Shown: in pieces, positions 1 to 59,959 of the stretch | Numbering within the stretch: position 1 is the first letter of the stretch | Layout: each line of letters starts with the position of its first letter | Program-made: the position numbers and the translations under genes | Notes under the pieces: model-generated | What the model was told of the DNA's origin: nothing | The model's database searches: none | Seen by the model: the letters and a program-made list of their open reading frames with translations, nothing else | Source of the DNA: Sphagnum magellanicum | Taxonomy: Eukaryota; Streptophyta; Sphagnopsida; Sphagnales; Sphagnaceae | Assembly (NCBI GenBank): GCA_021904315.1 | Contig: CM038923.1 | Coordinates: forward strand, 8,500,038 to 8,564,037 | Direction of reading: 5' to 3' | Length of the DNA stretch: 64,000 bases

Positions 1-1620
1 TGATGTGTATGTATGTGAGCAACAAAAAAAGATAAAGAATTGCCATGGAGAGCAGAAGCCCCCAATCAACAACCCAATCAATCAACTGTGATTTGGCTTG
101 CAAAATGGTTGCCATAGTGCCAAAAAAAAAACAAAGGGTTTCGGATTTGTCATGTCCCACCACTGGCCACAAGTTGGAAAGTAGTAAAATGGACCACACA
201 AGAACAACAAAAACAAAGTGTTTGTAACAGGATCAGCAGCATTACAACTTGCAAACTGCAGAGTTCGCCACCACAAGTTTTGGAGAGCAAAACCGACAAA
301 AGCAACATTGAAGGGTTTTGACTCCGGACTCCTTCAATGGGCCTGCTGCCATGGGTCCCCACAATTCAAGGCAGAGGTTGTGTGTTCATGGCATCTGTGG
401 TAATCCAAGCTCCCAGTTTGTTTGGGTTCTCAACTCTGCCCTTGCACTTGCTTCCAGCCATCAATTCCAAGGATGTTTTCAGGAAGCTTTGAGATTAGTT
501 AAAGCACAAGGTGAGTGTATCCATCTGTGCAGCTGAAGCCTTGATTGAACACTTTTTTGAGAGAGGTGATAAAATGGGCTTGGGTCCATTTGATTAGGTT
601 GGTAGAAATGGGATAAGGAACTCATCAATATGCCAAAAGGTTACATGAACTCCGCATCCAATGGGACTCTTCTCACGGGATTAGATTGACAAGTCATTGT
701 GGTTAGCAGCAGCAAAAGGGTTGAACTTATCCACATATGAGCAATCCCACAGAGATTGTAATGGCCATTGGACAAACTTGCACACTTGCATCACCAAGTT
801 CATAATCTGAAGAGTCAATTTATTGATACCCTGGATTCTTGATTTTGAACCATTCATGCCAGATGCTCTTCTATGGAGGCATTTTCTGACCGTATTCACT
901 AATGACAATAAAGCATTGAAAGTCTCAAAGTTGTTCATTTGTGCCCCCTCCCCCTCAAAAAGAAAGCCTCAAAGTTGCAACTTACTTGGCTAATTCATGT
1001 TTCAATGCTTGCTATGGAGTATCTAGGTCATTGTTTGTTTGTCCTTAATTGGGCTTTGTCAATTGCTTCAAGAAGGAAAACAGGAGATGAGTATCCCCCC
1101 CTGGCCTGAAGCAAAGATGGAATCAGTGGCCTGAGAGTGCAACTTCTGAAAGAGCCCGTGGTTTAGGGTAGGTTCTTTCACCAGTTTTTTTTTTTTCAAA
1201 GAACTGCTGGTCCCTAGGGTAGACTGGCCTGTGACCGAACAATTAAGTGCTCAGGGCAGGCCAGATCCAAGGGGAGAGCTCTGTTGTTTCTGATTTCCAA
1301 ACAAACTTGAACCTCTCCTCTTGGCACATATGACACACTAAGAATTGTTCTAAAATGGATTAGAAATGAGAAAGTTATGGCCCTCGAAGTAAAAGGGGGT
1401 TAAGAACTCAAAAAAACAACCCACCAACTCTACCAAAGCTGGTTCCTGAACACCCAAAAAATTCTTTTTATGTTGCTCTATTGCTATTAGAGTTCCAAGA
1501 TGATTTGTAGAAGTTCTGGTGGTGCTCCTATAGCACTTTAAATCGTTGAAAATGAATACAAAATAAAAAAGCCATGACATTTGAACATAAGAGGGGTTCA
1601 AAGCCCACGTGTCTTGTAAG
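1..1620. other. Gene-free stretch, moderately GC-rich
   Basis: Both strands were read for exons. Only short ORFs without recognisable motifs occur. The base composition is less AT-rich than the following region, so this may be the edge of a gene or an old repeat, but nothing specific can be supported. Around 1184-1231 a motif (TCAAAGAACT, then GGGTAGACTGGCC) recurs in inverted, diverged form at about 5194-5237, suggesting an old dispersed repeat. Confidence 0.4.
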
Positions 1621-1740
1621 TTGGAAAGCTTATTTTCCTTCTTGTTATTTTTTCATTACTCCTTTTCCTTTGCAATTCGTAAAGAACCATGCGTTTTTCC
1701 TTAGTGTAATTTCAGGTTGGTTATACGCGAGAAGATCGTT

Positions 1741-1822
1741 GAGTAACTTATGAAATTCGTAAGGAATTGGCCAGCTTAGCCCCAGCTTACGAGAGTTCCT
1801 TACGAATTTTGTAAGTTACTCC
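1741..1822. repeat. Inverted repeat / foldback, about 30-bp arms
   Basis: The left arm (1741-1769, starting GAGTAACTTATGAAATTCG) is nearly the reverse complement of the right arm (1793-1822, ending TTTTGTAAGTTACTC). A loop of about 23 nt separates them. The whole would fold into an 80-nt hairpin with few mismatches. It may be a MITE core or a small-RNA precursor; no known miRNA sequence is recognised. Confidence 0.6.
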
Positions 1823-2429
1823 CTAGTTCTTCATTTTAAAAAAAATCTTTTCATTTTTTCTAATTTATTTTACATAAGTTTAAAAAAATTTCAAAGTGCA
1901 ATTTCTTTTTCAAAACTCTTGCATCTCATAAATATAAGTCCTAAACATTATTTATCTTGAATAATCAAACCCTAATTTTAAACTAATTATCTAAAGCCAA
2001 ATAAAACCTAACCCTAATTTTTTAAATTAAAAAAAAATTACACTTGAGCTTTGCAAACAAGGCCACTTACAATTTTATTGAAATAAAATAAAATACTAAA
2101 ACAAAAAACTTTCAAAACCTAAAAATGTACAAAAAAACACAAAATCTTGAATTTTTCAAATGATTGTTTTTATTCACTGAAGGTTTCGTCACATTATAGA
2201 AAATGACCATCTTTCAGCTCCATGCTAATAATTTGTTGAAAAGCTATGTCCCAAAGATGATCGTTGATATTATTATACCTACAAAATAAATAAAATGTGA
2301 GCATTGAAATAGAAACAAAAAAGGAAACATAATTTTGAAAAAATAAGAAAAAAAGATCTTGGAAATGGAAATTAACAACAAAATTCAAAACCAAACAACA
2401 ATGTAAAGAATGAAGAAGAAATACTCACT

Positions 2430-4012
2430 TGCCATATGAAATTGGGTCCTTGTGGCCAATAACCTCCATCCCATATTCCCACAAAACAAGAGCCTTTTCC
2501 ATTCAAGTGATGTCGACTCTTCTCTCGATTTTGTTCAAAAGTATCTTCTCCTTCAACTCAAGGAAGTTGATAATCAGCTTGTCCATGATTATCATAACTA
2601 GTTGTGACCAATTGGAATTGTCATGAACCAAACATCATCACCATGTTTTCATTTGGGTTTGGGATATAGAAAAAGTGGGTATGGATTGCTTTATTAGAAG
2701 GTCAAATGGTAGGATGGTGCTTCATAATTTCCTTGTAAGTCGTAATCACATCTTTGATCAAACAATTGATTGAAGGACGATGTCGATACGTAAAACAATG
2801 AGTGACATCAATTCACCAATTTTTTGACACTCCTTAGCTTCTACTAAGGACCAAACCTATCGATAGAAACAACAATGTGAACTCATCAAAATCAAGATTG
2901 TATAATTTAGAACAATTTCTAATGTAAAAGTTTAGGATACAAAAGTACCCAAATTTGAGATTCAATTCGAAAGGTGAAGTTGGTTGAAAAATCAATTATG
3001 CTAGCATTTTTCGATTTTCTACAATTGATAGAATGTCGTACTTTTTTATGACCTTCCCAAGACTAGTGTTGAAGGCCTCCAGTGTAGTTTTGTCATCAGC
3101 AAGTTTCACCCAATGATACTTGGGACCAGAAAACATGTTGAAGGGGATTGCTTGTGCATTACCCAACTCGACAATTCGTAATTCTTCTTTTTGTTTGATT
3201 AGCCTCCAATGCCTCTAATCAAGGCTTGGATGTTGCATCACAACAAAAAACAAGTATTGAATTAGAAACTCATAAAAAAAACTAAAAAGAAATAAAAACC
3301 TAAAACAAAAAAACCTAAATAATAGAAATATAAATTACAACAATACCTAGTACAAGGGTAAAGACCATTGTCTTTTTTGCCACTAGCAGAACAAATAAAG
3401 AAAACATCTCCGCAAGTTCTTTCACAAAATCAAATAGGTCAAAAATTGATTTTTCCGTACCATAACCCCAAAACTATCTAAATCATCAAATGCATTACTG
3501 GCCCAAAGTTTGACATGTTTAATGACATGGAGACTACCTTTGTTCACATTGTCCAATTCCTTATCAATATCAAGGAAATAAAAATTTGAATATACCTTGA
3601 GAGAAAAGAAAGAGATTGGTAATTATATGACATTAGGAGCAACTACAACATGATTTGAAATAACTATTATTGCAACTATACAATCAAAATCCTCAATAGA
3701 AAGAGGAACAAAAGGATTGAAAAAATTGGAAAAAAGTTCAATAGATTGTGGTTGAACACTTGACTTGGGAAAAGGAACATAGTTAGCTAATTGTAAAAGA
3801 ATATTTGAAGTGTTGTTAGACCATAATACGTCAATTCCATTAATGTGAATAGATGTAGGTGGAGTAGATGGTGTAGTAGGCCATGATTTGGTAGATTTTG
3901 GATCATGACCCACATTAAGTAAATCAAACAATGGAGGGAAAAAATACATAGATTCTTCAACATAGAAATCTATTGTTTGTTGCTTCTTGAAAGCAAGTTC
4001 ATCAGATGCCAT
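2430..4012 (-). pseudogene. Decayed Crypton-like (DUF3504-type) tyrosine recombinase
   Basis: The minus strand, read through several frameshifts and stops, gives an ordered series of segments resembling the DUF3504/Crypton recombinase family. A 130-codon leader starts MASDELAFKKQQTIDFY at 4012. Next comes KLWASNAFDD near 3500, then FVLLVAK and, one frame over, KKDNGLYP near 3360-3380. Further on are IPFNMFSGPKYHW near 3130, SPFELNLKFGYF followed by an N-F-Y-I-R motif near 2920-2960, and FFYIPNPNEN near 2660. Order and spacing follow the family pattern (W-x-FD, V-x-K-K-D-G-x-L-Y-P, F-N-x-F, SPF-x-L, then a WY/FY-x-N-P block). The catalytic R-H-R-Y region would lie near 2450-2600 and is too decayed to assign. 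At least three frame changes and in-frame stops make this non-functional. The family assignment comes from my reading of motifs; no profile search was run. Confidence 0.55.
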
Positions 4013-7000
4013 TGGAGCAAAATTAAGAGGAAGGAAAAAAAGAAAATGAAAGTGAAAAATAACCTACACAAAATATAAATTCCACCTTTTGACAATGAAA
4101 AAAAATGAATCAATGTTTTAAAAAAAAAGATTTTGCACGGTGAAAGCAAACAATGAATAAAAATTGTAGCAACATATGATCATCACTAGAACGAAAAATT
4201 TAAAGAAATGTACAAATCAACGAAAACACCTACAAAACATGCAAAAAAAAATTCAAAATGAATTAAAGAAGATAATACAAGATTAGGAAGAAAAAAGACG
4301 AAATTGATGTTGTGTGCACTTGTACGAGAGAAAAACTAAATTATAGAGTAGTATATACACTGTGAAAAAATGATGGTGCAATGTTTTAGAGCAAAACAAA
4401 CTCAAACTAAACAACACCAATACAAGAGGAACAAGAAATGCCTACACATAAACAAGGAACACTTGCACATAAATTAAAAATTCATAACCAAAAAAAGACA
4501 AAGCCATTCATCAACACTTACACAAAATCCAACAAGGAACAACAATTTCAAACAACAACACAAGTTTTAAAAGAAAAAAAAGAGACAAAAATATGCAAAT
4601 AACCAAAATAAAATAAATAAATAAATAAAGAAGCGGGAACAAATGTGCAAAAATGTTACATAAGTGTTGCAATGATGTAGTGTTGCAATGAATAGGAAAG
4701 TAAGAATAAAAGAAGGCCCATGGGGACAAAAGTTGAATTTCACGACAAAGGATAACATTGTGCTAGGGAAAGAACAATTGAAAAAACAAATCACAAATAA
4801 TAGAAGCAGCCTTGAGCATAAAAAAAACAAAAAAAATGATGACAACTTAATTAGCTGAAAGAAAAAACTAAAACGACTATTTTAGGTTTAGGGCAAAGGA
4901 TGGGAAAATTTTGGAAAGACAATGGAAACAAATTGGAAAAACTTGTGTTTCTTTACACCATAGAAGGTTTCTTTTTGGGAACTTTATGGATTTTTGGCCT
5001 TGATCCCTCAACCTCACGGCCTTGGGTTAAGGGCTTCAAATATGTAAGGTTCCCATAAATAAACCTTTTCCTATACAAAGATGATTTTTAGAGCTTGAAG
5101 CAACATTCCCATAACATTTTAAATCACTCAAAATGAAACACATATGATGAAAGTATAAATAAGTGTTTGGTCATAGGCAGTCGATCGATGATGGGCCGGT
5201 CTACCCTATATGAGCTCGTTAGTTCTTTGAAAAAAAGAAAATTACCTAACATTGTTAGATAGCTTGCAAGGTAAGCCCATTATTGCTAGGTGTCAAACAA
5301 AAGAAGGCAATGGCCATCAATGAGATCGCCTATTCTTTTGTCTCAAGCCAAGGTATTTACTAGTGTTGGGCGGTTCTCTAAAATATTTAGGTAATCTTTG
5401 ATGGTACATTTGTTATGGCTATACATACCCTACCTTGGCCCTGACCTTGCTTTCAATACCTAAATATTACTTGACCTTGTAACTATAATGACCAATTTTT
5501 ATTTTTGTTTTGACAACCCTAATGGATAATCTTAAGCCCTATCCATTACCAAGACCAACCCCTTGCCAAAAACTTGAAACTTAATATTCAAGAACTTTTA
5601 ATTTGAAGGAAAAAAACTTTAATTGGAATATTAGTATATATATTTAAAAATCTAGAAGCTTATTTAGATGTTTTAGTAAAAAGTTTTAATAGAAGGTACC
5701 TAAATTTTGAGGTTTCTTTAGGAAAAAAAAATTGTTCAATTTATTTAAAAAGTTTTGGAATTGGTGTTGGGTGGTTTTTTGACTAGGTACATAGGGATAT
5801 AATAGTTAGAGGTGAACTTGCAAAAAAATTGCACCTTGCTTTACCTTGACAAATCTTGGATTTGTGGTAACCTTCAGATTCTACATGGGGGAAAAAAAAA
5901 CTAGGTGTTCCCTAAAGCCAACACCAAAAAATGGCCAAGGTTAAGGTTACATTATTTGTAAAAAACAAAGCTTCAAGTTACATTTTTGATAATCATTGAT
6001 TTTCCTATTAAGGTCTAGGGTTTTTGAAGCTTGCTTTTGAGTTTGAGAGTGATTGACAATGCAAGAGCTAGCATGCATATTGCCACATTATCACACCTTT
6101 TCTCCTTCTTGGTTTCCTTTTGAATGTGACAAAGTTTGGAATGTTGGCATTTAAAGGAAATTTTTGTTGATAACTTCTTCCTTTTTACTTAAAAGTATGG
6201 TGTTTATAAATGAGGTTGACCTAAATGAACTAGGTGAGATACGAACTTTAAGCTTTTCATTGAAAATTGCATTGTTTCTTTCTTTTGTGTAGTCATTAAA
6301 ACACAACTTATTATTGTCATAACTAGTTTTTAAAATTGTATGGATGAAAACAAATCACATGGAAATTTAATGTGAAATGGAAACCTTTTCATGTGCTATC
6401 ATTTACTATGTATTGACAAAACTTGTTGTAAAGTTTGAAATGTTTCAAAAAAAAAAAGATGTTGAAAGAACTTTCTTAGCATTGTTACCAATCTTAATAG
6501 TCCTTTTGTAACACCAATTGACACAAGTTTTTTAAGGTTTTTGAAGCTAACTTTTCATGGTTCCAATAAATTATTATTTATCATCAATTTTGGTGTTTTA
6601 ATACCAATTTTCTAGAAATATATCATAATTCCAGAATTTTAATCTTAAATAACTATGGATGGAGTAGAAAATTGATTCTTAATTTAGAAAATATTTAAAA
6701 CTAATTATGATGATTTGGAAAACTAACACAAACTTATTTTGATTTTGATTTATAATCTACTTGGAATTTGATTTGGAATTTGGTTTGTAAAGAAGCAATT
6801 GCAACAAAAATATGGACAATGAACAAAGCCTTGTCATGTTTCCTTAATAACCACATCACAAAATAGTGTGGGTGTGGGTTGTGTTTGCATGTTTGAACCC
6901 TCTCACCAAACTCTATGTGTAAGTTTTAAATGGTTTAAATGTACAATTTAAAAATAGATTAAATTGTACACCTATATTTTAAAAAATTCTTCTTGTTAGT

Positions 7001-8073
7001 AATTTCAAAGTGTTTCATGCAATTTTCATAGGTGTTATTTTTTATTACTTTCTTTTGATACTTAGCTTTTGCTCATGTTGCTAGTCTCCAATTTGGTTAG
7101 TTGCAACTTGCAAGCCAAAATTTGAAGTCATTTCTTTCCAATTAGGTTAGCTTTCTATCACCTATTTATTCTTTCACCTCCTTGTCTGTTCTCACCACTT
7201 GCATGCTTTTCTTGGTTCTCACCAATCTTTTATTGTTACTTCTCTCATGATGCATAGACTTATTCACAATTCATTATTGCCCTCTCATGTAATGTTCAAT
7301 TTTAGATAATAGTATGTGCAACTTGAACCAAGTGCCAATTACTTTTATGGTATCCATATGGGCTTGGCAATATATGGTAACAATACTAGCATCATGAACA
7401 TCCACAATGTAGAACAAGAACGCCTTTTTTATGTTGTTGGTGATGGGGACCTAATGAGGCTATCTTGCAAGAGGTGCATTTAGGAATTTGAGAAAGTAAA
7501 GAAAGGCTCGGAAACCACACTACAAGAATTCACCCACATGGGCATTTTACAAGGTGAACAATAATCCACTTGTTGATTTAAATAAAAGTCAAATCATGCA
7601 ATGCATAGTTTAGCATAATGACATGATCAACCCAAAGAAAATGGCCTTCATACACCAAGTTCTACAAAGGCTTCATTGCTTAGGTCATAACACTAGAGGA
7701 AAACTAGAAACAAACAACTACCATTTGCAACCTTATTTTAGTTGCAAAAGACATTTGCTACTGAAATTTACTTAGTTGCATTAACCAAGTTGCATAAGAC
7801 ACTAGTTCCAAGTGTGGATGAAATCAATGGTCAACAAATACTTCACCATTTATATACTATTGTATGTAATCCATATATTGCCATAAAAATCAACAACTTA
7901 CATAATGACACATGGCAAATGAAAAAGGTTTGAAAAAAAATTGTTTTAAGAATAGATAATGGATTATCATCATTTAATTTAAATGGTTTAAGATTCTGAC
8001 ACATGGCATAATACCAATATGCCATGTGGCATTTTTGGATTTTGGTCAAAATGAATTAAAATTTAATATTTGG
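4013..8073. other. AT-rich gene-free stretch
   Basis: No exon, tRNA or transposase motif was recognised on either strand. Poly-A and poly-T runs are frequent. A repeat shared in inverted form with the segment near 1184-1231 lies at about 5194-5237. Confidence 0.4.
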
Positions 8074-8134
8074 TAGGTAGGTAGGTTGGACTAGGTAGAT
8101 AGGTAGGTAGGTAGGTAGGTAGGTTAAGGAGGTA
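8074..8134 (+). repeat. GGTA/GTAG tetranucleotide microsatellite
   Basis: Runs of GGTA (AGGTAGGTAGGT...) are interrupted by GGACTAGGTAGATA. The same TAGGTAGG phrase recurs near 8925-8975, 29001-29034 and 37960-38020, so this simple motif is spread over the window. Confidence 0.85.
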
Positions 8135-8379
8135 GGAAATTATTTTAAATTTTTTTTGGGTTTAACTTCTAGGGTTAAACTTTTTAAAGGGTTAAACTTC
8201 TTTGATTGGCTCATCTCAATTGACATGTGTTTTTTTATGTGCAAGTGTAGGACAAAGCCTCCTCTTTATATAGTTATGAAGATGGAAATGGAGGACAAAA
8301 CATATGGGATAAAAATTGAAGGTGCAACTTAGTTGCAAACTAGGTTGCAACTAGAAAGTTCATATATTTTGTCCTCCTT

Positions 8380-8930
8380 TTTAATTTTGTAAATTATATA
8401 ACTAAGTAAATACATAACTACCTAATTATTAATTAGTATTTATACAATAATCAATTAACTAAATTCATTTAGTTATATATTTCATTAATAATTTAAAATA
8501 ATCATATAAATAAATATAAATAAAAAATAAGTAATTAATATCTAAATAATAATAAATTAAAATAATAATTATAAATTATAAATTAAAATTTCTGAAATAA
8601 TAATAATTACATTATTAACTAATTAATAATTATTACTAACCAATAATTAACTAACTAATGAGTTAATTATACATTATTGATGAATAATTCATAAATAAAT
8701 AAAGAAATAACTACAATATTATTACATTAATAAGTGTGAATCAAATAATAATTAAGTAATGAGTTGATTATAAGTAATTAATAAGATAATTCATATAAAA
8801 ATAAATAATTAACTAATATACTCAATAATTATGAAATATTAACTATAAATACTAAGTATGAACTAATAGCTATCAATTAATTAAAAAATAAGTGTAACTA
8901 ATTAATCATCAATTAATTAATAGGTAGGTA
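8380..8930. repeat. Extreme AT-rich low-complexity block
   Basis: About 550 bp is composed almost only of A and T, with recurring TAATTAA and AATAATAATT words. It is bounded on both sides by TAGGTAGG-type simple repeats (about 8074-8134 and 8925-8975). No coding potential is seen. Confidence 0.6.
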
Positions 8931-8975
8931 AGTAACCTAGGCTAGATAGGGAGGTAAACAAGGTTAGGTAAGTAG

Positions 8976-11089
8976 GCAATTTGTCTAAATAAAAACTAAA
9001 TATAATTTTATTGATACACCAATGGAAACATACCCCCATTATATCATTAATATAACTTAGAAATAGTACACATATTTTTCAAAAGTTTCCTAATACACCT
9101 ATGCATACCACTAGGGTATCAAAGGTTTTTTGCCATTAATTAAGACCATTGAGTCTATTTTGCTTTTGCAAATTGCATACCAATTGTGCCTGAGGAAGGT
9201 GTTCTTGTTTAAAAAGGTTTTTGTTAAAGAATTTTTCTTTGCAGTATTGAGTAACACCTTGAAAAAATATGGGTAACCTACCTTTGATTGAATGTTTCTT
9301 ACATTCACAAACACAAGTTCAATCTTTGGACATAAAAAAAGGCCCATAATATGTCATTGTTGGATTTTTGAAACATAAGTGATATAAGTGGTATTGCCGT
9401 GGTTGTGATGTGAAAAACTGCAAGTGTGCATTGACTTAATGATGCATAAAAGAACATAAGTTTCCAATTGTTGTTCAATTGGGTAGAGAAATTCTTGGGA
9501 CTTTAAAGCTAGCCAAATTGAAATGGAATTAAAACTCACCACTTTGAAATTCTTGATTTTTGATAAAAAAACATTGACCATTGGCTCCATGGGTTAAGTG
9601 TCTTACGTCTTTTAACCTTGCAAGTGTATGCAAGGTAGAATTAAAATTAAAAAAAAAACTCAATGTTAAGTTTGAAGATGAGGTTGAATGTGAAAGATTC
9701 CTGAAATTTTGTGATATTTAAAAAAAAATGGAAGTGCAATATATAATTTGTAGTCCACCCTTGGCATTTGAAGCAATCTACCATTTTTTATGTGTTTTTT
9801 TCTTAACAATTTTGACATTTGAGGTGGTTACAAAATAAGGTTGATCACTTTTTGTATCACATTATTGTTTTTTAATAGAATGTCATGCATTAACATGCCA
9901 TTAACATACCATAAAATCATCATTATGACAAATTTACCATTGACTTAAAATTGTCAACTTGAATAAAAATCTATACAAAAAGTTGTAACATATATACATA
10001 AAATATAGAGTAACTAATTTTTTAAGTAGAGAAATATGCATAGGACTTTTGTTTGTGGCTTCATGTAAATATATTTTTGAGTGTAATCATATTAACATTA
10101 ACCAAATTAGTTGCAACCAATGCTTTAAATTTCATATTTTAATGTAAAAAATTACATTAATGTTGTAAATCATTCAAAAAAATTCATGAAAATGTTTCTA
10201 ATGTATTATTGAAACATGTTATATGATTTGGAATGAGTCTAATGAGGATAAAATATTTTAAAAAAGTCATTAAACATTGTACAAAATTTAATTTTGAAAA
10301 GATTTTTTAAACATGACATATTTTGAGGGAGGTTTTTAAAACAGATATTTACATAATAGTATATTACAACATTTTCATGGGTCAAATTTTAGTTTTTCCA
10401 ACTTTTAAACAAAATATTCCTAGGATATTTTGGAAATATTCTAGACTAAACAAACACCCAAGTAGGTAGGTCTAACTCTTATTATTTTATTTGCACCTTT
10501 TTGTTTATGGATTTTTTTGGGATATTTTATAGGGAATCAATATATGATATATTAGATCAATAGGAACATAGTTGCAAAAAATTTATTAAAAAACATTAAC
10601 CCAAAAAAAGTTATGGACTTTTGAATGTCTTAAATTGAACCTTATTTTCTAATTTCCATACCACAATCATTATTTAAAGAATTTTGTTGCTTTTTTCTAT
10701 AAATATTTATGTTAAAAAGTTATTTAATTGGGCTTTTATTCATATAATATTTATTATTTAGTTAACCACCTTGTTATCCTTCACTCAAACAATTATATCA
10801 TAGTAAACTACCGTTTCAATACTATCAAATGGATTTTTTATGAACAATTTATCAAGTAAAATTGATCCCACTTTATCTTGCAAACATCTTTCAAAGTTGT
10901 GTATTTATAAGCAATTTAAATAACTTGTGTCTTTTTGTCTTTTGTAATGCACATGAGTTCATTGGAAAAGTAGCTTCTGAATTCAAGCAAATGTAATCAA
11001 AGTGCCAGGTAAAAAACCTTCTAGAGATTTGTGGTTTTTATCTTTTTAACATGGGGTGCAAACATAGTAAAAGGAACCACATGGTATGT
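8976..11089. other. AT-rich gene-free stretch
   Basis: Only short ORFs without domains occur. Because the adjacent 11090-11520 segment matches part of a hAT relic at 34.6-35.0 kb, this stretch could be the remainder of another decayed copy. I could not identify transposase motifs in it. Confidence 0.35.
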
Positions 11090-45822: not shown

Positions 45823-46500
45823 CCCACTTTCACGGTCCTAGTTGCACATGATCGCATTCATCGCTTCGCTTTGCTCTTGTCAGCTGGATCATATATATGT
45901 ATCTCGCACAACTCACTGCTTGCGATCTTACCCACCAGAATGTACTTTTTATGTCTATATTAGATTGTCTGTTTGGAGATTTTTTTTTTTTTTTTTTTTG
46001 GGGGGGGGTTATAACATATTGGCGGTGTTGGTGGTGGTGGTGGTGGTTGATCGGCGTGCGTCGTCCCACCAGTCTCGAGTGATCTTTAGCTGCCTGATGA
46101 TGTATGAATCGAGAAGAGTGTGACGAATTCATGAATGCACAAATTAGCTGCTGCTGCTGCAGCACCTGGGTCGTTCCTGCACAGCAGTAGCAACTCGACA
46201 GGATCTCAGATTTGTGTCTGTCGCAGATGTAACAATGTTTTGATGACCAGCTGCCGATCAAAGGTAATGTTTGGAACCCATTCTCTCCTTCCGAGACCGT
46301 TTTTGCATTCTCTGAAAATCATCTTGGCAGGCAACAACAGTCTAGTATCTGCAGCTTTATCTAGATCTCGTGCTCTGTAGTTCTACTTGAAGAACTTTGG
46401 ATAGTCTGAACTATGGAACACTTTGAAGCGAGCTCACTTGGAGCAATCCTGTTGCAACTAGTAATTGTGATATGTGTGGTCACAGATCTAGTTTGACTTG

Positions 46501-49500
46501 ATGGATCGAGTGCGGTTATCTCCTTCCGAAGCAGCACTGCAGGCACAATGTCAACAAGCCTCCTCCTCATCAGCAACTGCCTTCCTGACTGCAGGCGATC
46601 CAGACCTGTACTACGAGCTTCTGCAAGGACGATTTGGCACTAGTAGTAGTGGCGCAATTGCGAACACTGTAATAACAAGCGGCGTCAATTCCCAGCAGCA
46701 GCAGCAGCAGCAGCTGAGCCCATATCCTCCAACTCTAGTACTCCCGTCGTCCCTAGTACAAGGACCCACTTCCATGTTGAAAATGGAACCCGAGATGATG
46801 ATAACGTCGTCCTCCTCCGCGGATCCCGCCTTCTTGTCCAACAACTCCTACAACTGTAACTGGATAGTACCCCCCACTCCAGGATATTACGCTGATCTTA
46901 GTACTCCTCTAGGAGCTTCTTCTGGTCATAGTCTCTATTCAAGCCATAATCATTTCTCGCAAGGAACTTCTTCGTCGCTGCTGGATTCTCATCATTTCGG
47001 ATATAATTCCAAAGTTGGTATACCCGCCGCCGCCGCCGCTACTGCGTGTCAATCCCCGGGACAAATTCAAGCACTTCGTGACTTCATGGCGGGCCATGGA
47101 ACAACAACCATCTCCAGCTCCCATGAGTTGCCCATCATAAATCCATCACCACATTGCTCGAGAGCAAGTAAGTTTCTTTATTGGCTCTGCCCTTCAAGGT
47201 AGAGAGACATTGGGATGCACCCAAAAGCTGGCCAAGAGTTTGGTATCCCAACAGACATTCTAGGGTCATGTGGAGTCCACTAGAGAAACGTTTCAGGCAT
47301 CACTGAACAATCCACCTGGGCTTCACCATGCTAACCACCATGTGTAACTTCCAATTTAGTCTGTTGAAAAATAAACATCTTTATGGATGTCACTTAAAAG
47401 GATGCCATTATGTGATCAGCTCCTTGTGATCAGCCTTCTTGGGAGGGGTACTCTTTGTATATTTTATGAAACACATGACAAGGGTATTATTTTACAAGGA
47501 TATTTGTTTTGTGTATGTTATGAAAGAATATAATATGAGGGAAAAGTTTTTTAAAAATTAAGAATGTTTTGAACATATTCTAAATATATATTGTCATAAG
47601 CCAATTCTTGGCAACTTATCTGTATTAATTGAAGTGAATTATAAAATTTATTTATTTTTCATTAGGTTACTACACCTTATAAATTTTTTTCCCCTCATCA
47701 TTTGGAAAAAACTGGAAGTAAACCAGCTTCCCTAGCTATTTGCAAAATCATTGCAAAGTTCGTTCTCATTGTCGATACTAGTAACAAAATGTGGGTGGGT
47801 GTATGGGTGTCGTCACAGGCTCGATGGGTACTTTCTATCAACAACATGATGATGAAATCGGAGCAGATACTATGGTGGTGGTCGCCGCCACAGCAGCAGC
47901 AGCAGCAGCAGCTGAGGGGGACTATGCAGCACAACAGTTATTGTCGGAGCGTCAGTCTTCTAAGCAAGAGTTGATGGCATATCGGAGCTTATGCTCGGAG
48001 ATTTACGCGACAGAAAGGAGCCCACATCGGAGTCAATTTCAAAGAGAGAATCACATTCTGGCTGAGCGTCAACGACGTGAGGAAATGAACGAAAAATTCT
48101 CTGCCTTACGAGCCATGATTCCCAAAGCAACCAAGGTAAGGTGGTGGGTGGGTATAGCCTGTACTTTCTCTCCTCACAAACCCACTCCTGGAATGGCACT
48201 GCCGAAGCGACAAAGCCCCAAGAAGCCCAACAAAGTGTAGGGTAATGCCATAGACCTGGGCAGGGCTTTCACCTGCACCCCAGTGGGTTTGAACCTAGAA
48301 CCTTTTTTGACGTCCCAGGGTCCCAGTCCACTAAGCCATCACCCCTGGGGTGAGTGTGAAGGGTTTTATGTCTCTCAGAGTATTATACCTATTTTAGGGT
48401 TTGTGACGATCTCAGTCCAATTTCCTGCTAGCTACAACAAAACTTGTTGTCTTCTTTTCATTGCATCTTCACTGAATTTTCTTTTTACTTGAAGGAAATT
48501 GTTTGATGAGAGCTGAGTTCCTCAATGTGCTTGCTGCTCTTTGACTTGGATGTCAGAACAGTTTGCTATTTGACTTAGGGGGATAATTCTTTCTTTCTTT
48601 CTTTCCTTCACCAAATGGTTTGAAGAGCAAATGGTTTTTGTAATTTTATGTATGTATTTTCCTCCTTCCTTTTTCCACATGGATTTTTCCACTTGCATTT
48701 TCCACATACATGGTTTGGAGCATGGAATCCAAGCAACAGAAACCTATCAAGTATTCATTCCAGGTCCATGTATGTCTCTCTCATAATCTTTCTTGTCGGT
48801 CAATGCAACACTTCAGCAACTTAGATCAAGCTACTGTTTTGCATCTTACAGGTAATGAGTTTTTTTAATGTAAAATCTAATAAATGAGCATCATTATCAG
48901 CTATTAATATAACCACATTGGTGTTGGTGGTGATCATGGTTGTGTTTTTGGTCTCAGAAAGACAAAGCCTCTATCGTAGGAGACACGATCAATTATGTTC
49001 TAGAGCTTGAGAAGAGGCTAAAACACCTCCAAGGTTGCAAAGATATTGAAGGGGGTGGTGGTGGTGGTGACCCCAGCAGCGGCTTCTTCAAATCCACAAA
49101 GAGAAAAGTAGCCCCTTCAACAGCAGCGCCATATAGCAGCAACATCTTTGAGGACACATCTGGTCAACCACCCATTCATGCTCAGAGTGATGTCGGTGCT
49201 TCTCCTGAAAAGCAACCTGTCTGCAATGACAGGTTATTGCAACAATTGCATGTTGAGAAATCAAGACCCAGAGACATTTCAGTCGTAAGTACACCATCAG
49301 ACCAACTCACTGGGGAGTCTAAATCGGTAGGTGTACTGAAAAACTCATACCCTCTGATGATGCAATGCAGAGAAAGATGAACAACCATCTCCATTACAGA
49401 TAATGTGGAAGTTGCTCTTTCAAAACAATGTAGGAGTTTTGCCAACAAGTTTGATTGCACTGGTAGTAAAAAGTCTTACCCCATTGGGTGTCTCTTCTGT

Positions 49501-56640: not shown

Positions 56641-57544
56641 CCCCCAAAAAATAAATAACAAAAGGAAAAATGTCATAAACCCCTTTTGACATCTAAAGAT
56701 CAAAACTTGTTGTTATAGAATAATAATCTACCAAAGTAGGTAAAACACACAATTGTTTTATTTTTTGCACTAATTTCAGTAAAAAATTTCTTGAAAATTA
56801 TTTTTTAGAAGGCAAAACAACCTCTAGACACAAATGCAAACTAAATATTTTTAACCATTGACTTTCAACATAATAAAATGATTAACATTGTGCATTTCTA
56901 CTATCATGTTTTCACTTTTTTCATTGAAAATACAAGTTTTCTTTAGTTCTTTATCCCCCCCCCCCCAATCTACATTAATATTTTCTTATATTTGTAAATT
57001 TGGCTAAATTTCAAACTTTCTTCCATTCTTTCCTCTTCCATTATAACATCATTCAAATATATTTCATCATTATTATTTATTTTGTTTTCATTTTGGGATG
57101 ACTCTTCCATTATTAGTTGCAAGATAAAATTCTACTTTATGAGTGGGGAAAAAAACCAAACAATAATATGCAAATCTCTAGGCCACCAGCAAGTAAATTT
57201 ACAAAGGCATTTACAATTTAGAAAAACATTTACACATGCATTTACAAAAATGAAATGTTTGATGTAAGATTAGAATGCAAGTTTAGAATGTCAAAGTTGA
57301 GTTAGAAAAAAAGAATAATCCTACAACCAAAAAATGAAAGAAAATAATCAAAAGTTGAAATTTTAAAAAATAAACTAAACAAACCCAAAAACATCAATCA
57401 AAAAAAGAATGCAAAGTCAAAACAAACCAACAAAACTTTTGAATGAAAACAAATTTTAAAAAACACTCCTTATTTTTCTAAGACAACACATGACACCTAA
57501 CATGTTTTAAAACTTGCACATGGCAAGAAAAGAGAGGAGTACAT
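56641..57544. other. AT-rich gene-free stretch
   Basis: May hold the N-terminal part of the adjacent hAT relic, but nothing is recognisable. A C-run of about 10 lies near 56957. Confidence 0.35.
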
Positions 57545-58200
57545 CACCTCAACAAGTAAATAGTAGCATAAAGCAAAGAGTGACAAATCACAACAAATAA
57601 CAACAAGAACATAAGGGAAAGTGAAGTGAGAACTTGGAAAAGGCATGGAACGATGAAATAGCAAAACAAAGCAAGGAACAACAAATCACACAAGGCGAGG
57701 AGCGACAAACCATAATGAGTAGTAATAATGCAACTCGAGGGCAACACATCACAACATGCAACAATAACACAAAGTGAAGGATGACAAACCACAACAAGTA
57801 GCAATAACACAAGGTTAAGGATATGCACCACAACAAATAGTAATAATGCAAAGTGAAAGCAATGCACCATAATAAACAATAGCAACACAAGGCAAAGGGC
57901 GATGAACCACATAAGTAGTAATAATAAACCACAATAAATAACAACAATAGTGCAAGGCAAAGGTAATGCATAATAGCAACACAAGGTGAGGGATGATGCA
58001 CCACAACAAATAATAACAACATAATGTGAGGGATGACAAACTGCAGCAAACAGTAATATCATTGCAAAGTGAGGGCCACACATCATAGTAAGTAGCAACA
58101 ACACAAGGCAAGGAGTGACACACCATGCCAAATAGCAATAACGCAAGGCGAGGAATGACATAGCACAACAAGTAACAGCAATAATGTTGGCAAAGAGCAA
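57545..58200. repeat. Degenerate minisatellite, ~40-46-bp unit
   Basis: About fourteen diverged copies of a unit like GATGACAAACCACAACAAGT followed by AGCAATAACACAAGGCGAGG. The unit drifts in length and is A/C-rich with almost no T on the plus strand. This keeps several minus-strand frames open and yields long Leu/Cys/Tyr-rich ORFs that I regard as artefacts. Confidence 0.8.
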
Positions 58201-59959
58201 ATGCAAAACAAAAATCAAAACATGATGAACAAAAACACAAAAAACACATGTTAATCAAACAAAAAAACCTCCTAGGTTTTATATTATTCTCCTTTTGTGG
58301 TCTCCCCTATGGAAACACCACCCTAAACCTTAAAACTTTTAACCCTAAACCTAATTCTAACATACCTCTTAGACTTAATTGGATTTGGGTTTTCATGTGA
58401 AAACCCATTTGGTTTTTGTTTTTTGTTTTTTTATTTTTTTATTATTTTTTATTTTTTTGCTTCAATTTTCAGTTTTGGTTTTCTTAGTCAGTTTTCACTT
58501 GGGGGAGAACCTTCAAATTAGTTTTCAACCCAGTTTTCACCCAAAATGAGAATAATTGGTTTTTAATGTGAAAACCAAACTAAAAACTGGATCACTTAGT
58601 GAAAACCATTTAACATTGGTGTAAACATAACAAAACCACCTTAATGCACCCTTATTCATTAAGGGTTTTCCAACAGTACCAAGAGCGTGATTCAGGGTGA
58701 GAACAAACCATAATGAAAGATTTCAACATGGCAAACAGGTAAACCATCGTCTTTAATAATTAGATTCAATTTACACATTATCATGGCTCCTTATGAGGCC
58801 ATCTCCTATCGCCAAAAAAAAGGGGTCACTTCATTAGAAAACACCTTAAGAATATTAATGTATTTGTAGTTTATTGAACACAGACTCATCAAAATGAAAA
58901 TACATTAAATGAAGCATATCCAATTCCTAATTGTAATTATGTTATGATGTCTACAACATCTAGATTCTAGACTTCAAAGGATTTGATCTCTCTTTATTTC
59001 CTTTCAAGAGCCAATTGCTCATACAATGTGACAAGTCATTTCTCAACACCAAACTTGAAATCCCAACAGATGTCCTAATTTCATCAAATCTTCCCATAGA
59101 AAGTGGATAGAGAAAAATAGAACAACACAGATAACACCTTTGTAACCCTTTGGGTGTATGCAAAATGTATACATCAATGAACATTATTTCTAACATTTTT
59201 GTGAAATTAATCACACTCTTGAGCTTTAGATCTAGTCATTGTGTTTTCATAAGTTTTTTATAAAACTGGTTATGGCAAAATAATTAGATGAATAAGAGGA
59301 ATTGTAAGGTTTTGTGGTTTGATGAGTTTATATCACACATGATGTAATAATGGACCTTTTGAATCACAGTTAACAATCTCATTTTTTATTTTTTGACTAT
59401 CAAAGGCAAGTTGTTACATGATTAATTAAACCAAAAAATCAAAGTCTAGAATAATTTCAACTATTCAATTTAGCTTAACCATAGGTAGAACAATATTATG
59501 GGTCTTGAGGTGCCAACAAATCATCAATTGGTAACACCTTTGGATAAGCATCATCAACATACATGTTTGAAATGGTGAAACTATGGGGACATCGACTAAG
59601 TCAACAACATATTGATGCTTACCATGCAACCTTATAGCTATGAGGTTTTGAATTATTTGGGCCCAGGGTATCAAATCAGGCATTTGACTGGCTAGTGTGA
59701 CCTAGTAGCCACAAACATACTAGCCCTGCATTTTCGTTATGAGGCCATCCAATTAAATGAACCCAAATTTTAGAACCCTTAGCACACTTTTGACACTTTC
59801 AATTATGTGGGGTTAGATGGGGAACAAGAACCCAATGAAAAGGAGTGTCCTTTCCATGCACCATTCATCCATCCAATGATGATGATGCATTTGTGGGTGC
59901 TAGTTCACTCTGGCCATGTCAAACATGTATTTTTTCAACAATGAAAAAGAGGTATCAAA
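58201..59959. other. Gene-free stretch
   Basis: No exon identified. Several GTTTTCAC/GTGAAAAC words in both orientations lie at 58390-58620. Two short minus-strand ORFs (58960-59214 and 59465-59683) have no recognisable motif. Confidence 0.4.

Follow-up and report, generated by a model that had tools for sequence, protein, structure and literature searches.

A dead, probably Crypton-like DNA transposon in a peat moss genome

The minus strand of positions 2430-4012 in the window analysed here carries a series of motifs in broken frames, which an initial annotation read as the relic of a DUF3504/Crypton-type tyrosine recombinase, belonging either to a Crypton-like lineage or to a host gene derived from one. 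The question was what this locus is. The window is the whole stretch of 64,000 nucleotides (contig C17:8500038-8564037), and the genome that was searched comprises 438,994,042 bases in 31 contigs. The model of the LEAFY SAM domain has 12 matches in it, the best at E 3.1e-33, which agrees with a host that is a land plant or near relative. From comparisons of sequence, we consider that the locus is probably a Crypton-like DNA transposon, now dead and degenerate, whose host is a land plant, the peat moss.

All five motifs of the initial annotation were found on the minus strand and in the order claimed. KLWASNAFDD is read in the frame that starts at the ATG at 4012, downstream of an in-frame stop at 3625-3623, and KKDNGLYP, at 3429-3347, is read in a different frame. 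IPFNMFSGPKYHW, SPFELNLKFGYF and FFYIPNPNEN (2674-2645) share one common frame of exon B. The frameshifts that had been proposed are also present, with changes at ~3480-3460 and ~3380 in exon A and one between 2645 and ~2610 in exon B; the stretch 3208-2651 (minus strand) is a single frame with four in-frame stops (row L001:1952-2509). The extent first given, 2430-4012, does fall on a homologous gene stretch, but this stretch is wider and runs from 4012 to ~2146, surrounded by an inserted segment of ~1680-5075 (Table 1). Exon D, which is found in sister copies, was not found in window positions 1-9000. The window copy has the majority base of the other copies in 67% of the columns (1119 of 1668), and some single columns are deleted from it.

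Table 1. Features of the recombinase locus and its surroundings, in window coordinates (^ marks a border)
Feature	Positions	Strand	Remarks
Left half of high-copy target repeat	5076..5210	-	Ends ...ATCATCTTTG; 87% to L099, 89% to L100
Inserted segment (putative whole element, ~3.4 kb)	1680..5075	-	Leader, recombinase gene relic, tail
Leader of element	4013..5075	-	T-rich; splice-like TGTAG^G sites
Exon A	3347..4012	-	ATG 4012; N-terminal part; KHVKLWASNAFDD...KKDNGLYP of the core-binding half; two frame changes and an in-frame stop
Intron 1	3233..3346	-	GT donor retained; acceptor is AA in window copy
Exon B	2429..3232	-	Remainder of core-binding half; catalytic half for the most part; a single frame change
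Box I Arg (FYIRNC)	2918..2920	-	Family column R 23/62, K 22/62
Conserved Lys (VSKN)	2822..2824	-	K in 60/66 rows; conservation rank 16 of 271 codons
Conserved His (GHKD; family (S/G)HRD)	2452..2454	-	H in 59/63 rows; rank 6 of 271
Intron 2	2279..2428	-	GTGAGT ... TTTTGTAG
Exon C	2146..2278	-	YNNINDHLWD...; two stops
Candidate catalytic Tyr	2275..2277	-	Y in 35/40 rows; first full codon of exon C
Subterminal inverted repeat	1741..1821		26-nt arms (92%), 29-nt spacer; near element 3' end
Right half of target repeat	1600..1685	-	Starts TCTTT(AC)GAATTGC; 92% to L099, 87% to L100

Elsewhere in the window, an open frame at 47785-48240 (plus strand) contains a bHLH domain (PF00010, E 3.2e-8). The frame upstream of it, at 46492-47202, is rich in Gln and Ser and had no Pfam match; it may be the first exon of the bHLH gene. 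At 57544-58306, the three frames of the minus strand are open over long, overlapping stretches with a recurring Leu/Cys/Val-rich pattern, and this is probably a tandem repeat.

The recombinase relic belongs to a repeat family. A DNA search of the genome with the stretch 2200-4012 gave at least 45 matches; one of these is the stretch itself, and the others were 63-84% identical to it (40 of 49 candidates were scored). When proteins from sister copies were used as queries, there were at least 150 genome matches for exon A (150 of 231 candidates scored) and at least 141 for exon B (150 of 220 scored). A 271-residue exon B consensus gave at least 149 matches (142 of 577 candidates scored), which represent at least 119 loci on 19 contigs at a grouping distance of 3 kb; peat mosses have n = 19 according to a passage of PMC11333200. 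All genome match counts are lower bounds. The window copy was recovered by the exon A query (C17:8503507-8503617) and by the exon B consensus (C17:8502688-8503245), and it was not among the matches of the exon B protein query from sister copies. The existence of this family excludes chance as an explanation for the motifs alone. A search of viral contigs with one exon A-B query found no relative. Several family copies each are gathered in local clusters at ~7.87-7.96 Mb on contig C9 and ~16.12-16.22 Mb on contig C17. The loci L065, L070 and L072-L074 are more divergent, with ~29-35% identity in the search with the exon B protein query and an unchanged motif order, which suggests that they represent old subfamilies.

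The family was once protein-coding, intron-bearing and dispersed. Aligned matches, 101 in number and from 48 genome segments, went into a first DNA consensus, and 86 rows (73/74 segments, first of three rounds) into a second one of exon B. The coding frame of the second exon B consensus contains 5 stops, against 14 and 30 for the remaining frames, and the consensuses of rounds 2 and 3 have 8 stops in their coding frame. Differences between copies at codon positions 1, 2 and 3 amounted to 37.0, 30.3 and 50.7%, respectively (2,251 row pairs), with the peak at the third position. The consensus borders are AA^GTAATA...GCA(A/G)^C for intron 1 and AA^GTAAGT...TTTTGTAG^G for intron 2. Among the individual rows, the donor of intron 1 is GT in 33/41 and its acceptor is AG in 15/49 and AA in 31/49, and intron 2 has a GT donor in 29/38 and an AG acceptor in 27/40. 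That the introns were kept in many copies speaks for a spread as DNA and not via spliced mRNA, and spliced retrocopies were ruled out on the same ground. A further C-terminal exon, exon D, was found in 28 of 46 other anchored segments, of which two were the sources of the queries and many were short. Two stretches of exon D matched none of the Pfam families, GCR1_C included.

The sampled copies are dead. Of the exon B rows, 55 had 600 or more aligned columns, and none of these was free of in-frame stops, and the intact paralogues retaining R-H-R-Y that the initial annotation had hoped for were not seen in this sample. Stop-free matches of the exon B consensus numbered 3 of at least 149, and each was 75-80 residues long. 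Compared to the majority base, C-to-T differences reached 38% at CG, 44% at CHG and 28% at CHH sites; high C-to-T levels at CG and CHG are the expectation for methylated repeats. Of the two origins suggested at the outset, the Crypton-like lineage gained support, whereas nothing was seen in favour of a domesticated host gene.

The identity of the encoded protein was assessed against 24,736 Pfam families, and DUF3504 (PF12012) was the only family matched by the exon B DNA consensus. The E-value was 0.0026 for the first consensus, 0.013 when the exons were joined and 0.0019 for the second consensus, whose 18.7 bits lie below the curated cut-off of 29.7 bits. The match covers a stretch around LFLCPKPKWKSSNDVWFMTTPIGHNQL that corresponds to model positions 126-159 of 162. 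The DUF3504 reading had been put forward before any search, and the match is specific as anticipated, but every score stayed under the curated cut-off. Thirty single fragments from 27 loci, taken from 86 listed at 40 bits or more and with stops read as residues, gave DUF3504 in 6/30 (best E 0.0063) and eight other families in 1/30 each. Consensuses of clades with at least three rows, excluding six single rows, matched DUF3504 in 2/9 (E 0.039, and E 0.045 over model positions 6-158 of 162), an unrelated family in 1/9 and nothing in 6/9. The reversed exon B consensus and four shuffled versions (of six made) gave DUF3504 in 0/5 and one unrelated match at E 0.22.

Other forms of the query were silent. 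A profile-derived exon B consensus from a filtered iterated protein profile, alone and joined, gave no DUF3504 match in Pfam, nor did one read-through exon B copy or ten single window pieces. Eight single fragments (seven of exon A and one of exon B) matched neither DUF3504 nor QRICH1 and showed other weak matches. When the DUF3504 model itself was run against the genome at E 0.001 there was no match, and control genomes were likewise silent; at E up to 10, one of the four best places in the 439 Mb was a family member. For the preceding, core-binding half, the sole Pfam match was the QRICH1 domain (PF25561), at E 0.12-0.2 and below the curated cut-off. A QRICH1 domain followed by DUF3504 is the order in QRICH1 and ZMYM proteins. 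The QRICH1 model at E 10 pointed to three places in the genome, none of which was a clear family match. There was no tyrosine recombinase match among PDB chains, no match in PHROGs and one weak, unrelated match in NCBIfam.

By these profile scores, the DUF3504 signal is sub-threshold but specific. The sub-threshold level of all Pfam scores and the several consensus versions that gave no match would agree with an unrelated protein family whose likeness to DUF3504 is accidental. We regard such a resemblance as very improbable, given that DUF3504 was named in advance and then came first and alone, and was absent from the matches of the reversed control and of the four shuffled ones. The signal also bears on whether the recombinase could be the surviving part of a reverse transcriptase-bearing element, i.e. 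a tyrosine recombinase retrotransposon of the DIRS or Ngaro kind. Such elements did touch the plant lineage, as a DIRS-type recombinase lies behind the plant ALOG domains according to PMC3537659. However, the family signal is DUF3504, which DIRS and Ngaro recombinases do not match even at E 100 in the comparisons that an excerpt of PMC3212892 describes, and the moss copies retain spliceosomal introns at common places, so a retrotransposon origin seems quite unlikely.

The alignment columns offer a further view of the protein. Apart from the residues listed in Table 1, the Tyr of ISYGK in exon B is present in 49/56 rows and ranks 28 of 271 codons. The candidate Tyr of exon C follows nine residues after the conserved His, and a nine-residue His-Tyr spacing is that of Cre and lambda integrase. 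The second Arg column has R in 16/65 rows, and its commonest codons include TGG, CAA, CAC, CAT and TGA, a pattern that decaying CGN codons would leave. The two Arg columns have conservation ranks of 223 and 260 of 271. No H of HxxR was seen in the family exon B columns. As far as can be read from these columns, they would suit a tyrosine recombinase that lacks one classical residue and in which two others have decayed, and they do not amount to a full R-H-R-Y set.

The surroundings of the gene revealed an insertion. Queries with the two flanks gave 1249 and 981 first-look candidates, of which 40 were scored each, and nearly all scored places matched the repeat half only. The two halves of this repeat adjoin, uninterrupted, at C16:1464368-1464571 and C6:6681448-6681657, which in a base-level alignment read ATCATCTTTGAAGTGCAAAGG. 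Since the halves are contiguous elsewhere and separated in the window, ~3.4 kb were inserted here. The left junction in the window reads ATCATCTTTG^TATAGG... and the right junction ...GGTTCTTTAC^GAATTGCAAAGG. Both window junctions carry TCTTT, the right one with two additional bases (AC), and the uninterrupted sites each have TCTTT a single time. A second, more diverged piece of the target repeat lies further right, at 1556-1493. In the one copy examined there are no terminal inverted repeats, as the ends GTATAGGAAAAGG... and ...GCATGGTTCTTTA are not complementary. A TIR transposon was ruled out because the ends are not inverted. Helitron ends are TC...CTRR; the ends of the element do not fit this pattern, and a Helitron was ruled out as well. 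The inverted repeat at 1741-1821 is also visible in a copy on contig C8, with one arm gapped, and is possibly a recombinase binding site.

The ends of the element were also seen at two other places. Copies on contigs C8 and C4 have the leader and tail in common with the window at 74-82% identity. For the leader, identity was 79% in the C4 copy (window 5092-4310) and 82% in the C8 copy (4258-4035), and the 3' homology of the C8 and C4 copies stops at window positions 1680 and 1679, respectively. The homology of the C4 copy runs to 5092, 17 bases past the 5' end, making this end less sure than the other. The C8 place (C8:22347850-22348570, L098) joins window position 4035 to 2104 with 15 bases between and has no recombinase gene, and at the C4 place (C4:25889157-25891190) 857 bases lie between window positions 4310 and 2082. 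The two places are without the gene or the greater part of it. The leader and tail of the window were found in no other fetched family locus except L098. One possible reading is that an unrelated element, with other copies at C8 and C4, makes up the inserted 3.4 kb and that the recombinase gene was captured by it or nested in it. The C8 place would then be the empty site of the gene segment, ~4034-2105, and the gene may still be Crypton-derived. The C8 copy, where the counterpart of window 4258-4035 is followed after 15 bases by that of 2104-1680, would fit this, as would the absence of leader and tail from the other fetched family loci. On the other hand, what is missing from C8 is exactly the coding part, as expected if an autonomous element had undergone an internal deletion, and no direct repeat was recognised at the 4035/2104 junctions. 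We consider a nested gene to have a minor but real share of the probability. The reading of the C8 and C4 places as deletion derivatives, i.e. non-autonomous copies, is preferred, though not strongly; the preference is mild because no other fetched family locus has the leader or tail.

A different pair of copies, L051/L096 on contig C6 and L061/L097 on contig C15, is 90% identical over 4 kb. The homology begins ~3.2 kb upstream of exon B and departs from the family sequence within exon B, and the C15 copy carries a further ~1 kb insertion inside exon B. Because of this departure and the insertion in one of the two, the pair does not define the element. So close a pair on two different chromosomes, together with the local clusters on C9 and C17, could be taken to mean that a host gene family of Crypton descent was multiplied by segmental duplication and died without ever being mobile, the more so as animal DUF3504 proteins are domesticated according to PMC3212892. 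We find this improbable to a high degree in view of at least 119 loci on 19 contigs, the lack of any stop-free row among the 55 that were well covered, and the position of the window copy within a segment that interrupts a high-copy repeat. At least 119 loci with introns at common positions speak for dispersed copies that moved as DNA, and the movement itself is seen only in the one interrupted repeat.

If the locus is a Crypton-like transposon, one intron-bearing gene would have encoded a tyrosine recombinase whose catalytic half was of the DUF3504 type and whose core-binding half resembled that of QRICH1. Following the account of Cryptons in passages of PMC3212892, the enzyme would have bound sites at the element ends, the recombinase tyrosine would have cut one strand, and the element would have been freed as a circle. 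On the same model, the circle would have recombined into the genome at a short sequence common to element and target, here TCTTT, and this core would have been left at both junctions. The copies would then have been silenced and have decayed, with C-to-T highest at CG and CHG. Cryptons are described in the same source, as excerpted, as having neither TIRs nor long direct repeats and as carrying 4- or 6-bp direct repeats at their ends, compared to the 5 bp of the candidate junction direct repeat TCTTT in the one insertion examined. The TCTTT pair fits a short recombination core, of which one insertion is no proof.

In the statement of a 2024 plant paper, Cryptons had not yet been identified in plants. 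The distribution table of a 2011 survey, as far as excerpted, contains no plant Cryptons (PMC3212892), and passages of a plant-genome review mention the Crypton class but give no example from a plant (PMC11630846). The word Crypton is absent from the available portions of the Sphagnum genome paper, in which unclassified repeats are the most abundant type (PMC9946827). Among the papers listed from the open-licence PMC literature on Cryptons, DUF3504, plants and mosses, no title or abstract opening reported a plant Crypton. On balance we lean towards the view that land plants had their own deep Crypton lineage, with an intron-bearing recombinase gene, an extra C-terminal region, long selection and several clades, which left more than 100 dead copies in the peat moss and inserted by a short core, here into another repeat. 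A plant Crypton lineage, if true, would extend the superfamily to streptophytes, offer an origin for those plant DNA-binding domains that derive from recombinases, and explain part of the unclassified repeats in peat-moss genomes.

Among known systems, the DIRS1-type elements behind the plant ALOG domains are alike in being a tyrosine recombinase tied to the plant lineage (PMC3537659), but they are retroelements, and their recombinases do not match DUF3504 in the excerpted comparisons of PMC3212892. CryptonF of fungi and oomycetes, as passages of the same survey describe it, is a DNA transposon that has a tyrosine recombinase and ends in short direct repeats, traits that the moss element would share. 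In contrast to CryptonF, there was no GCR1_C among the Pfam matches of the moss exon A-C consensus or the two exon D stretches. The comparison extends to CryptonA and CryptonI of animals and the DUF3504 (PF12012) genes KCTD1, KIAA1958, ZMYM2-4, QRICH1 and WOC, which have in common with the moss family the DUF3504 signal in the catalytic half, preceded by a QRICH1-like part, and no other recognised domain was seen in moss exons A-D. The one moss copy examined is also like CryptonA and CryptonI in having no TIRs and a candidate short terminal direct repeat. Compared to these two, the H of HxxR was not found in the moss exon B columns and the similarity is sub-threshold, and the moss family differs from them in its land-plant host, in the spliceosomal introns inside its recombinase gene and in an extra C-terminal exon (INVNTTSNHVFSHLQNCPITINYV-like) that is present in many copies.
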